This document shows, one piece after another, positions 18,976-23,441 of a stretch of DNA of 64,000 nt. The translations under genes were made by a program, and so were the position numbers. Below the pieces are notes generated by a model. It worked only from the letters and a program-made list of their open reading frames with translations. It ran no database searches and had not been told where the DNA came from. Source of the stretch: Gillisia sp. Hel1_33_143 (GTDB taxonomy: Bacteria; Bacteroidota; Bacteroidia; Flavobacteriales; Flavobacteriaceae); the NCBI RefSeq assembly GCF_900104765.1, contig NZ_LT629737.1, positions 2,542,001 to 2,606,000 on the forward strand, in the 5' to 3' direction. Position 1 is the first letter of the stretch, and every line of letters starts with the position of its first letter.

Positions 18976-21021
18976 ATGAAGAACTTCATCAATAGTTTCT
19001 ATAGACATCAAGCTTTATTCTACAAGATCTTTTTGTTTGTTATTACTGCAGTTTTAATTATCTATTTGCTTCCTAAAGGTGGAAAATTCAAGTATGAAAT
19101 TACTAAGGGAAAACCTTGGCAATATGAGAATCTATATGCTCCTTTTGACTTTGCTATTTTAAAGAATGAAGATGAGATCATTAAGGAGAAAGATAAAATT
19201 ATCAATAATAATATTCCTTACTATACATATAGTGAAGGAGTAGTAGAAAAGGTAAAGACAGAAGTACCAAATCAGATCAATCAGATATTTCCGGATAGCG
19301 TCTTAAGAAAACGTGGATTATCTATACATTCTTTTGTAAATAAAAGTTTAGATGATCTATACGAATATGGTGTTCTAAAAGATGCACGTAAACCTGGAAA
19401 GGATGTACTAGTGTATCTTAGAAAAGGGAATGTTGCCTTTGAAATAAATTATAATAAGATCTACTCCCAAGAAGATATAAGATCTTTTGTGACTTCAGAA
19501 TTAAATACTACAAATCTAAAAAGTTTTCAGCCGGAGATTTTAGAGGTTTTCTATAATAGTGTAAAGCCTAACGTAAGTTTTGATGGAGCTTTAACTCAGA
19601 AGGAATTGGATGGTAAATTGAGAGCGATTTCTTATACTAGAGGAAGTATAAGTAGAGGTACCATTATAATATCTAAAGGAGAGATCGTTGAAGGAGAGAA
19701 GTTAGATATTCTTAATTCTTTAAAAAATGAATATGAAGCGCAAGTATGGAGCACCTCTAGCCACAACTGGATCTTACTTGGTTATAGTTTATTGGTGTGT
19801 CTTGCCTTATTAATGTTGCTTTTGTTCATTAGAAAATATAGGAACGATATTTATGAGAACAATGTAAAAGTAACTTTTATATTTTTCAATATTTTATTGA
19901 TGGTCTTTCTTACCACATTGGTAATAAAATTTGATCCTAAATATGTCTATATAGTTCCACTATGTATTCTGCCTTTAACTCTAAAAGCATTTTTTGATTC
20001 TAGACTAGGACTTTTCTCTCATGTAATTACAGTACTTATTTTAGGCTTTATAGTGCCAAATAGTTATGAGTATATGTTCCTTCAAATCATTGCCGGAATA
20101 GTTACTATTTTAACTGTTTCTGAACTATATAAAAGAGCGAATTTATTTATTTCTGTAGGACAGATCACCTTTATATATATTCTTGTTTATTTCGCTTTTA
20201 ATGTTATTCAGGAAGGAAACGTATTAGAATTGAATTCAGAAATGTTCTTGACGTTTATTCTGGGAGGTTTAGCAACGCTTTTCGTTCAACCGCTCATCTA
20301 TATCTATGAAAAATTATTTGGTCTGGTTTCAGATATGTCTCTTTTAGAGCTTTCAGATACTAATTCAAAATTATTAAAAGAACTTTCAGAAAAAGCTCCA
20401 GGTACTTTTCATCATTCTTTAAACGTGGCAAATCTTGCAGAAGCTGCTGCAAATGAAATTGGCGCTAACGCTATGTTGGTTAGGGTAGGAGCTCTTTATC
20501 ATGATATTGGTAAAATGGAGAACCCCACGTATTTTTCAGAAAATCAATCTACCTCTGTGAATTCTCATGATGAGCTTTCTCCAAAGGAAAGTGCTCAGAT
20601 TATTTTTGATCATGTTATTAATGGGGTAGAAATTGCAAAAAAGAATAATCTGCCAGATAGAGTAATAGATTTTATTAGAACTCATCACGGTACAACATTG
20701 GTCTATTATTTTTATATGAAAGAAAAGGAGTTGAATGAAAATGCCTCTCCAGCAGATTTTAGATATCCCGGTCCAATCCCTTTTAGCAAGGAAACAGCTA
20801 TTTTAATGATGTGTGATAGTGTAGAGGCTGCCAGTAAAAGCTTAAAAGAGCCTACCACTGTTAAGATTAATGATTTTGTAGAAAAGATCATTAGTAAACA
20901 GATGGAAGAGGCTCAATTTTTAAATGCAGATATTACTTTTAAGGAAATTCAGCTCATAAAAAAAATTCTCAAGCAAAAGCTTAAGAATATTTTTCATTTA
21001 AGGGTGGAGTATCCGGAGTAA
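18976..21021 (+). CDS. 7TM-HD family membrane phosphohydrolase (PgpH-like)
   Basis: A 681-residue membrane protein of the 7TMR-HD family; characterised members (PgpH) hydrolyse cyclic di-AMP. After a first membrane helix (13-33) comes an extracytoplasmic domain to about residue 260. Seven predicted membrane segments follow to about 455, and then a cytoplasmic HD domain with FHHS (480-483), YHDIGK (507-512) and RTHHGTT. Whether this protein uses cyclic di-AMP is inferred from the family. It ends flush against the convergent Gre-like gene, with no spacer. Confidence 0.9.
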   Translation: MKNFINSFYRHQALFYKIFLFVITAVLIIYLLPKGGKFKYEITKGKPWQYENLYAPFDFAILKNEDEIIKEKDKIINNNIPYYTYSEGVVEKVKTEVPNQINQIFPDSVLRKRGLSIHSFVNKSLDDLYEYGVLKDARKPGKDVLVYLRKGNVAFEINYNKIYSQEDIRSFVTSELNTTNLKSFQPEILEVFYNSVKPNVSFDGALTQKELDGKLRAISYTRGSISRGTIIISKGEIVEGEKLDILNSLKNEYEAQVWSTSSHNWILLGYSLLVCLALLMLLLFIRKYRNDIYENNVKVTFIFFNILLMVFLTTLVIKFDPKYVYIVPLCILPLTLKAFFDSRLGLFSHVITVLILGFIVPNSYEYMFLQIIAGIVTILTVSELYKRANLFISVGQITFIYILVYFAFNVIQEGNVLELNSEMFLTFILGGLATLFVQPLIYIYEKLFGLVSDMSLLELSDTNSKLLKELSEKAPGTFHHSLNVANLAEAAANEIGANAMLVRVGALYHDIGKMENPTYFSENQSTSVNSHDELSPKESAQIIFDHVINGVEIAKKNNLPDRVIDFIRTHHGTTLVYYFYMKEKELNENASPADFRYPGPIPFSKETAILMMCDSVEAASKSLKEPTTVKINDFVEKIISKQMEEAQFLNADITFKEIQLIKKILKQKLKNIFHLRVEYPE

Positions 21022-21471
21022 TTAATGAACTTCTTCAATTTCAATCTCTTCATCTCTCCATGAAAAGGAATCTCCTTGTTTTTTATTTTCTAGCTCCTTA
21101 TAAATAGGAGCTTCAGTAGAGATCACATTTATCTTAGTATCATGCAATACTACTTCTCCCAAGGCTACAGCTATAAAATATAAGTGCTTAGGAGTTTTTA
21201 CTACACTACCAAATTTCACATGTTCTGAATAATGTTCTCTATCAACTTTACTCAGTTGCAATTTCATGCTTTGTGCATTATCTAAATACTTAGCGTATTT
21301 TTCAAAGTCACCTAACAATTCTCCTTTACTTCCTTCTTCATCATAATCTGTATGAACATCATTAGCCACCATAGACTCTTTGATGTTATCCATTTCTGAT
21401 TTGTATTTATCTATTTGACCGTTGATCTTTGCTAAACAAGTCTCAAATAATTCTTTCTTATTAATTTTCAT
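21022..21471 (-). CDS. GreA/GreB-like transcription elongation factor family protein (divergent)
   Basis: A 149-residue protein. The N-terminal half is a likely coiled coil with acidic residues near its turn (HTDYDEEGSKGE). The C-terminal half resembles the FKBP-like domain of Gre factors, ending in STEAPIYKELENKKQGDSF, close to the Gre phrase in which a product is followed by KKVGD. Gre factors stimulate transcript cleavage by backtracked RNA polymerase. Similarity is partial, so it may be a Gre-family protein with another role. It is monocistronic. Confidence 0.65.
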   Translation of the reverse strand: MKINKKELFETCLAKINGQIDKYKSEMDNIKESMVANDVHTDYDEEGSKGELLGDFEKYAKYLDNAQSMKLQLSKVDREHYSEHVKFGSVVKTPKHLYFIAVALGEVVLHDTKINVISTEAPIYKELENKKQGDSFSWRDEEIEIEEVH

Positions 21472-21562: not shown

Positions 21563-21642
21563 TTATAAGTCTATAAACTTATAATGAATCTTTATAAGCT
21601 TCAAGACTTATAATTATGTAATATAAGTTTTTAGACTAATAA
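21563..21642. repeat. Three 22-bp inverted repeats at 29-bp period (candidate operator array)
   Basis: Dyads TTATAAG-N8-CTTATAA occur at 21563-21584 (perfect) and 21592-21613 (perfect 7-nt arms), with a degenerate copy ATATAAG-N8-CTAATAA at 21621-21642. Start-to-start distance is exactly 29 bp twice, with 7-bp gaps. The last copy ends 7 bp before the promoter box and 18 bp before the ATG of the SatD-like gene, which encodes a helix-turn-helix. The arrangement fits cooperative binding by a dimeric repressor. Confidence 0.75.
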
Positions 21643-21649
21643 AAAAGCT

Positions 21650-21657
21650 TATATTTG
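21650..21657 (+). promoter_or_regulatory. -7 promoter box of the SatD-like/DUF3307 operon
   Basis: TATATTTG matches TAnnTTTG exactly and ends only 3 bp before the ATG at 21661, so the transcript would start at or very near the start codon. The -33 region would fall inside the third dyad repeat. Confidence 0.55.
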
Positions 21658-21660
21658 AAT

Positions 21661-22341
21661 ATGATAGCAGTTCTAACAGCAGATTTAATAGATTCTACTC
21701 ATTATGAGGAGGAAATCTTGAAAACCGTATTAAACAGTCTCTCTGAAGAATTTGAGAAGCTTGTTGCGCAATATGGTAAAGAAAACGTACGCTTTAATAT
21801 TTATAGAGGCGATAGTTTTCAGGGAATCATTAATCAGCCAGAAGCGGCATTGGAAATAATGATGCAAATAAAAACTGCGGTGAACAAAATTCATCTAAAA
21901 AAGACAAAAAAGAATAAAAGCTATTCGAAAATAGCAGATTTTAAAATGGCCATTGGAATAGGAACTTTGGATTTTGAAAGAGATTCTATATCTGAATCTA
22001 ATGGACAGGCATTTTTATATTCTGGAAGAACATTAGATACAATGAATAATGACTCCAGAAAAACCATGATAAAAACAGAATATGAAGAAATAAATGAGGA
22101 ATTTAATACAGCTTTCTATTTAATGGATACTTTAACCGAAAAGTGGAGCACAGCATCTGCAGAAGTTGTATACTATTTGCTCAAAAACCTCAAAGAAAGA
22201 GAAGTAGCAACAGCAATAGGTATTAGTCAGTCTGCCGTTAATCAGCGTAAAAAGGCAGCGGGTTGGGATGCAATAGAAGGATTATTAATAAGATTTAAAA
22301 ATGTGGTAGAAACAAGATTTGTAAATATAAAAATAATATGA
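21661..22341 (+). CDS. SatD-like protein: nucleotide-cyclase-like domain with C-terminal helix-turn-helix
   Basis: 226 residues from the ATG at 21661; a TTG two codons earlier overlaps the promoter box and is unlikely. The N-terminal domain recalls SatD and class III nucleotide cyclases: MIAVLTADLIDS with acidic residues D8 and D11, then YRGDSFQG and MAIGIGTLDF. The C-terminus has a likely helix-turn-helix (EVATAIGISQSAVNQRKKAAG) of the sigma-region-4 type. The gene overlaps the DUF3307 gene by 4 bp (ATGA). It is preceded by three operator-like dyads, so I infer an autoregulator; ligand or catalytic activity is unknown. Confidence 0.75.
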   Translation: MIAVLTADLIDSTHYEEEILKTVLNSLSEEFEKLVAQYGKENVRFNIYRGDSFQGIINQPEAALEIMMQIKTAVNKIHLKKTKKNKSYSKIADFKMAIGIGTLDFERDSISESNGQAFLYSGRTLDTMNNDSRKTMIKTEYEEINEEFNTAFYLMDTLTEKWSTASAEVVYYLLKNLKEREVATAIGISQSAVNQRKKAAGWDAIEGLLIRFKNVVETRFVNIKII

Positions 22342-23057
22342 TGATCTTATTGCAATTATTAATAGCCCATATTTTAACCGACTTTGTTTTACAGCCAGGT
22401 AGCTGGATAGCTCATAAAAGAAAATTTAAACAAAGATCTTATTTATTAATTATTCATTCCTTAATCGCTGGGGTCCTAAGCGTGGTTCTTCTTCAAAATA
22501 TCCAATTTTGGTATGTAGGTTTATTTATCACAATTACACACTATTTTATAGACTGGTGGAAATTAACACAAAAAGAAGATACGCTAAAATATTTTTTATT
22601 AGATCAATTATTCCACGTTGGCATGATAATGTTAGCATGGTTATACATCAGTAATAATTTTAATGAAATCCTTCCCGGTATACAATATGTTTTAAATTCA
22701 ACAGCAATTTTAGCTATAATTAGCGTTTATCTAATAGTGATCTTTCCTACCGGTTTTTTGATTGGAAAGGCAACAAAAAGATGGCAATCTGAAATAGAGA
22801 TCACCCATCAAAAAAATAGTCTAGAAGCTGCAGGAAGATATATAGGTATTTTCGAAAGAATATTGGTTTTAACCTTTATTCTAACCAATAATTTCTCTGC
22901 TATCGGATTTCTAATCGCGGCCAAATCTATTTTGAGGTTTAGCGAAAAGTCTGAAACAGGAGCAAGAAAGCAAACAGAATATGTGCTCATAGGAACACTA
23001 ATGAGTTTTGCTATTACTATTATCTTAGGATTGCTAGTAAGAAACCTGATTTTCTAA
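22338..23057 (+). CDS. DUF3307 domain-containing membrane protein
   Basis: A 239-residue integral membrane protein with about six hydrophobic segments. The N-terminal signature LLIAHILTDFVLQPGSWIAHK and the following HYFIDWWK are typical of DUF3307. Function is unknown. Its ATG overlaps the stop of the SatD-like gene (ATGA), which indicates translational coupling and a shared role, perhaps with the soluble protein sensing or regulating the membrane one. The last 24 bp overlap a convergent gene. Confidence 0.85.
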   Translation: MMILLQLLIAHILTDFVLQPGSWIAHKRKFKQRSYLLIIHSLIAGVLSVVLLQNIQFWYVGLFITITHYFIDWWKLTQKEDTLKYFLLDQLFHVGMIMLAWLYISNNFNEILPGIQYVLNSTAILAIISVYLIVIFPTGFLIGKATKRWQSEIEITHQKNSLEAAGRYIGIFERILVLTFILTNNFSAIGFLIAAKSILRFSEKSETGARKQTEYVLIGTLMSFAITIILGLLVRNLIF

Positions 23058-23441
23058 AAGCTGAATATTGCTAAGAATCCTTTCTTTTACCAAATTCATC
23101 ATTCGTTTATTTAGAGCAGAAGAATTCTCTATATAAGTTAAATATTCATCGATGGTGAATTGGCCAATAATAATTCCCTTAAGGCTATTTCTGAATTTTA
23201 TATCTCGTTGAATAGCATTTTCTATAAAAAGAAATTTCTTTTCGATACTAAAATTATGAAACGCATTTTTATGCTTTTTAATATAGTTCCTAAAGACTTC
23301 TATGAGTAAATCATTTTGAAGTTTTGCTATGGGTCTAAGAGTTTTATTCTGAAATTGTTCCTCCAGGCTCATGTTGTCTGAAACTTTAGCAGATGTAATA
23401 ATTGGCCTTGCCTTTAGTAATTCTAAATCTCGTGGTGTCAT
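23034..23441 (-). CDS. Conserved flavobacterial protein of unknown function
   Basis: A 135-residue, lysine-rich, all-helical-looking protein beginning MTPRDLELLKARPIITSAKV and ending with SSALNKRMMNLVKERI. I know similar proteins as widely conserved in flavobacteria, some labelled glyoxalase, but no metal-binding glyoxalase motif is visible and I would not adopt that name. Its 3' end overlaps the DUF3307 gene by 24 bp on the opposite strand. It is monocistronic. Confidence 0.75.
   Translation of the reverse strand: MTPRDLELLKARPIITSAKVSDNMSLEEQFQNKTLRPIAKLQNDLLIEVFRNYIKKHKNAFHNFSIEKKFLFIENAIQRDIKFRNSLKGIIIGQFTIDEYLTYIENSSALNKRMMNLVKERILSNIQLLENQVSY

Follow-up and report, generated by a model that had tools for sequence, protein, structure and literature searches.

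A SatD-family protein with a cyclase-like domain and its membrane partner form a conserved, probably self-regulated gene pair downstream of a 28/29-bp dyad array

The window analyzed here is a stretch of 64,000 nucleotides from Gillisia sp. Hel1_33_143 (contig NZ_LT629737.1), and positions are counted from its first letter. It carries on the forward strand a SatD-family gene encoding 226 residues (satD, 21661..22341, with its ATG at 21661), followed on the same strand by a gene for a membrane protein of 239 residues (the partner, 22338..23057). The overlap of the two genes by ATGA, which had been read from the sequence alone, is present at 22338-22341. Three dyads precede satD, and the claim that they repeat at exactly 29 bp was confirmed. 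Dyads 1 (21563..21584) and 2 (21592..21613) are exact copies of TTATAAG-N8-CTTATAA placed 29 bp apart, and dyad 3 (21621..21642), a further 29 bp downstream, reads ATATAAG-N8-CTAATAA, with one base changed in each arm. The dyads had also been said to end at the promoter. They do lie upstream of it, but the last one ends 8 bp before a putative -7 box, TATATTTG (21650..21657, forward strand), and it is this box that adjoins the satD start codon. The box is of the TAnnTTTG type, the consensus of the flavobacterial sigma-A -7 box, which is located at -12 to -5 (PMC9723704). Dyad 3 sits where the -33 region of such a promoter would be, and an mRNA starting from the TATATTTG box would be leaderless or nearly so.

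Exact matches to the dyad occur only twice in the complete 3.48-Mb genome, and both are in the array (dyads 1 and 2). When up to two mismatches were allowed, the whole genome yielded 84 matches, compared with 114 for a reversed-pattern control. Since near matches were fewer than in the control and the sole exact copies belong to the array, no regulon is indicated, and a SatD regulon was rejected.

Several other genes lie close to the pair. Upstream, with one gene between, is a gene for a 7TM-HD protein (18976-21021; PF07698 and an HD domain), which has the architecture of the c-di-AMP phosphodiesterase PgpH; its place beside the pair is not conserved among the relatives compared. A small divergent gene (21022-21471, reverse strand) has a sub-threshold match to the GreA/GreB C-terminal domain (E 0.0013); as only five loci keep it beside the pair, the array cannot by default be taken for its operator. 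On the other side, an uncharacterised gene on the reverse strand (23034-23441) converges on the partner and overlaps its 3' end by 24 bp, and 11 loci of the Gillisia clade have this gene after the pair. Neighbours of the pair are common only within clades, and conserved functional neighbours were therefore rejected.

SatD matches PF16264 with 35.6 bits, above the curated cut-off of 29, and its AlphaFold model (mean pLDDT 95) consists of a cyclase-like domain (approximately residues 2-138), a linker helix, a helix-turn-helix (HTH) and a C-terminal helix. The HTH, which the sequence-only reading had already placed in the C-terminal part of the protein, spans residues 164-199 (22150..22257, forward strand) and is built from helices 164-173, 179-186 and 190-199, the last of these being the recognition helix. 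The same reading had likened the N-terminal domain to SatD and nucleotide cyclases, and fold and sequence agree with it on this point. Foldseek matched the domain to class III cyclases, GGDEF domains and a cUMP synthase (7r65), with E values of 1e-4 to 1e-3 to cyclases and GGDEF domains, and a profile search with SatD retrieved the class III cyclase Ma1120 (E 0.0095). In the Ma1120 alignment, D8 and D51 of SatD fall on both metal-binding Asp residues of the cyclase. D8 (codon 21682..21684, forward strand) occupies the first of these positions and D51 (codon 21811..21813, forward strand), within RGDSFQ, the second; both are invariant in 120/120 sequences, as are S12, G50 and G115. SatD also has the RxxIGxG and G-helix motifs in common with class III cyclases and GGDEF domains. 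These results support a class III cyclase/GGDEF-like fold for the N-terminal domain of SatD.

SatD differs from class III cyclases in its fusion to an HTH, in its probable autoregulation, and in the Asn/Arg pair that serves the transition state in these enzymes and is not kept in SatD. The Asn is absent. An Arg stands at +7 from G115 in 28/30 sequences outside Flavobacteriaceae, but Gly replaces it in 90/90 Flavobacteriaceae, of which only 38 have an Arg at +8. Given the lost Asn and, in Flavobacteriaceae, the unconserved Arg, we consider a metal-nucleotide sensor more likely than a standard cyclase, with unusual catalysis being possible. A bound nucleotide may control the binding of SatD to DNA.

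The second gene had been described as encoding a DUF3307 membrane protein. The DUF3307 domain is indeed present at the N terminus of the partner (PF11750, 85.5 bits against a cut-off of 23), but the name is imprecise, since this domain is optional and a C-terminal membrane domain is the constant part. The latter (22785..23054, forward strand), recognizable by GIFER...AAKSILRF...EYVLIGT..S, is found in every partner, both in the long form, which has DUF3307 in addition, and in a short form of about 105-115 residues that consists of the C-terminal domain only. It has no name in Pfam. Seven residues, G169, E172, R173, K195, R199, G218 and S222, are invariant in the partner alignment. Conserved in the DUF3307 part are HxxxD, H, HxxxD and DQxxH, a pattern that resembles a metal site. 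The AlphaFold model of the partner (pLDDT 92.8) had no meaningful match in the PDB, and the identification of the partner as a SLATT-type effector was rejected, the Pfam match being sub-threshold only (E 0.0058).

A cyclase-like protein encoded beside a membrane protein recalls Pycsar, and SatD might accordingly be catalytically active, as a cyclase or nucleotidyltransferase, and gate the membrane partner through its product, while the HTH would serve only to set expression. The fold, the retention of both metal Asps, the membrane location of the partner and the presence of the cUMP synthase among the fold matches are in keeping with this. We nevertheless judge it improbable: the catalytic Asn and Arg are altered as described above, and Pfam recognised no cyclic-nucleotide-binding domain in the partner. 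The pair also differs from Pycsar systems in that SatD is probably a DNA-binding protein, and PADLOC gave no match for any protein of the window, so that membership in a known anti-phage defence system was not found.

The sequence-only reading had made its proposal depend on whether the dyads are conserved upstream of orthologous pairs. They are, in 90 Flavobacteriaceae orthologues and beyond. For 90 Flavobacteriaceae satD genes, we compared the preceding 140 bp with dinucleotide shuffles, and found an identity at lag 28 of 0.484 compared with 0.330 in the shuffles (z 41.7, range 35-42) and a second signal at lag 29 (z 11.9). Control windows placed 300-440 bp upstream, within satD or beyond the partner gene gave no peak at 28/29. 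The array unit in Flavobacteriaceae is TATnnnn-N6-nnnnATA, mostly in 3-4 copies, with a period of 28 in 66 loci and of 29 in 24. DNA upstream of satD in other Bacteroidota showed lag 29 (z 17.5), that of Lactobacillales showed lag 28 (z 15.1), and both lags (29, z 22.7; 28, z 15.3) were seen in a mixed set, mostly of other phyla, which takes in haloarchaeal plasmids, Gammaproteobacteria, Spirochaetes and Clostridia. When periods of 22-35 were searched in this mixed set (L121-L204), 61 of the 64 significant arrays had a period of 28 or 29; the array finder used for this presupposes the tandem-dyad form, whereas the lag analysis does not. The geometry is thus shared by arrays that differ in their words, which outside Flavobacteriaceae include TGTTTCA/TGAAACA, TTCAACC/GGTTGAA, GTTCGGT/ACCGAAC and ATGTCTG/AGACAT.

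The palindrome word varies together with the recognition helix. Among all SatD columns, the mutual information with positions 4-6 of the palindrome was highest for residue 195, which is Q195 in the Gillisia protein (codon 22243..22245, forward strand). Gln at this position goes with AG at positions 5-6 (AAG or TAG) in 31/34 cases, Glu with C followed by G or T in 13/13, and Lys with CC or AC in 13/16. We also compared 40 branch-disjoint pairs on a tree that was built without the HTH. The half-site class differed in 14/17 pairs in which residue 195 had changed and in 5/23 in which it had not (Fisher p 1.8e-4, or about 0.035 after Bonferroni correction over ~190 columns, phylogeny being a limit on co-variation tests of this kind). 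Residue 195 ranked first of all SatD columns in this phylogenetically independent test, and A192 of the same helix ranked second. For held-out loci, the residue-195 code gave the right word in 11/18, compared with 5.2 expected (p 1.7e-4 by label permutation, which is not corrected for phylogeny), or in 10/17 when one locus whose genome was in the first set was left out. In many cases, therefore, the word can be read from one SatD residue.

Computation thus provides strong evidence that SatD would bind the dyads. Since the array is conserved at orthologous pairs and its word co-varies with the recognition helix, the self-regulation by SatD that had been proposed earlier is strongly supported computationally. 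If the dyads were instead bound by another regulator and their association with SatD were incidental, the word would hardly track SatD's own recognition helix; in addition, the array accompanies the pair whatever its neighbours, and further exact copies are absent from the genome. We regard this alternative as very improbable.

The position of the array relative to the promoter bears on the direction of the control. An exact TAnnTTTG was found upstream in only 51/90 Flavobacteriaceae loci. Measured from the end of the last dyad, the first base of the box in this family is often at -2, -30, -58 or -86, which places it 2 bp into a dyad and in phase with the array; in the Gillisia clade, the box begins 5 to 8 bp beyond the last dyad. 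One Lactobacillales locus (L209) has a TAGACA-17-TATAAT promoter (11/12 matches), the two hexamers of which lie in dyads 2 and 3. Such overlap of promoter and dyads points to repression. SatD could also act as an autoactivator bound upstream of its own promoter, as might be thought from the position of most dyads, ahead of the -7 box, and from the last dyad of the window, which ends before it; the boxes that overlap dyads in many relatives and the -35 and -10 hexamers inside dyads of the Lactobacillales locus make this quite improbable in our view. Array position by itself does not fully separate repression from activation. With a period of 28 bp, or 2.67 turns of B-DNA, each dimer would be turned by ~240 degrees relative to the one before (~274 for 29 bp), and SatD dimers may wrap the DNA and touch one another.

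The distribution of the two genes provides a further line of evidence. SatD is present, in single copy, in 116 of 199 Flavobacteriaceae genomes, and the partner is present in 114, all of which have SatD; no genome has the partner alone. The partner adjoins SatD in 117/120 Bacteroidota loci and 29/30 Lactobacillales, and was found in at least 74/83 loci of other groups, a lower bound where contigs end. A search with the Pfam SatD profile gave 20 genomes that appeared to have only the partner. A family-specific profile detected SatD in 18 of them, one was a contig edge, and one (L268) is a real exception; most of these apparent cases are thus an artefact, because the Pfam profile reaches weakly. 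The partner is almost never found without SatD, and the pairing is near-obligate. In the exceptional locus (G430, 1553-2251), a distant full-length partner homologue has a degenerate C-terminal motif, and SatD is not adjacent.

SatD occurs without the partner in two of the Flavobacteriaceae genomes. In one (L236 in G106), a remnant of the partner C terminus directly follows satD; in the other (L235 in G150), the array is no longer clear. Elsewhere, we observed a partner split into two frames (G028:C4:314699-315387), a second partner copy that has decayed and contains two stops (G164:C15:37646-38005), and, in the Lactobacillales order sample, a genome (G525) with four SatD matches, two of which are pieces of a broken copy. 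No SatD relatives were found in IMG/VR, and viral carriage was rejected; a tblastn search of phage records likewise detected no partner. The DUF3307 domain alone does have phage relatives (PHROG 2470 and fold matches in BFVD), and it is named in one phage annotation (PMC8504454).

In Streptococcus pyogenes, satD was reported as the single essential accessory gene in the strains tested, being present in 178/249 genomes (PMC11323703). That a gene is essential yet accessory is what one would expect if it encoded the repressor or antitoxin of a neighbour that does harm. The pair might accordingly be toxin-antitoxin-like, SatD both repressing its own operon and directly neutralising a membrane toxin, the partner. 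It resembles type II toxin-antitoxin operons in its overlapping genes, its probably autoregulated first gene for a predicted DNA-binding protein, a palindromic operator over the promoter, and an effector that is rarely found without its regulator; among the Flavobacteriaceae, SatD outlives the partner, once beside a remnant of it. On the other hand, the pair is single-copy and clade-stable in this family rather than multi-copy and mobile, the large cyclase-like domain conserved in SatD has no counterpart in antitoxins, the partner is a multi-domain membrane protein, the array is fixed, with about three dyads spaced by 28/29 bp, and PADLOC did not recognise the pair. We consider direct neutralisation possible but unlikely.

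The reading that we prefer, and think probable, is that SatD is a cooperative autorepressor and nucleotide-binding sensor that guards a potentially harmful membrane effector. In this one-component system, dimers of SatD would use the C-terminal HTH to occupy the three dyads in a cooperative manner. They would thereby obstruct RNA polymerase at the promoter shared by satD and the partner gene, which is translationally coupled to it. The N-terminal class III cyclase/GGDEF-like domain would bind a metal-nucleotide ligand that alters the grip of SatD on DNA. The membrane effector would be the partner, in which the C-terminal domain is the constant part and DUF3307 an accessory domain of metal-binding-like character. 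Its uncontrolled expression is probably harmful, as suggested by the S. pyogenes report and by the distribution of the two genes.

The two-gene module of SatD and its partner is real and deeply conserved, is probably self-regulated, has a cyclase-like domain as its probable sensor, and is found in many bacteria and some archaea. More tentatively, and with somewhat less than even confidence, we propose that it is an ancient, undescribed bacterial and archaeal switch. About three dimers of a repressor with a cyclase-derived nucleotide sensor would occupy the 28/29-bp array and hold in check an effector that is toxic or remodels membranes, until a change in a nucleotide signal sets it free. Two protein families without an assigned function are in this way joined in one module with a near-universal operator geometry; as the module has a predicted DNA target, a specificity residue, a likely ligand pocket and a defined partner domain, its function is directly testable. 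It also offers a simple, testable explanation for the absence of satD, an essential gene, from some S. pyogenes lineages.

Few papers mention SatD, and the literature searched does not describe its operator, DNA binding, cyclase fold or partner domain. What has been reported on the sat genes concerns acid tolerance (via Ffh) only. The sat operon of Streptococcus mutans resembles the present locus in its SatD domain, which matches PF16264 above the curated cut-off. In a Lactobacillales locus of our set (L206), ffh is followed by the SatD-partner pair, as in the sat operon, and from this order we would guess that satE of S. mutans encodes the partner.
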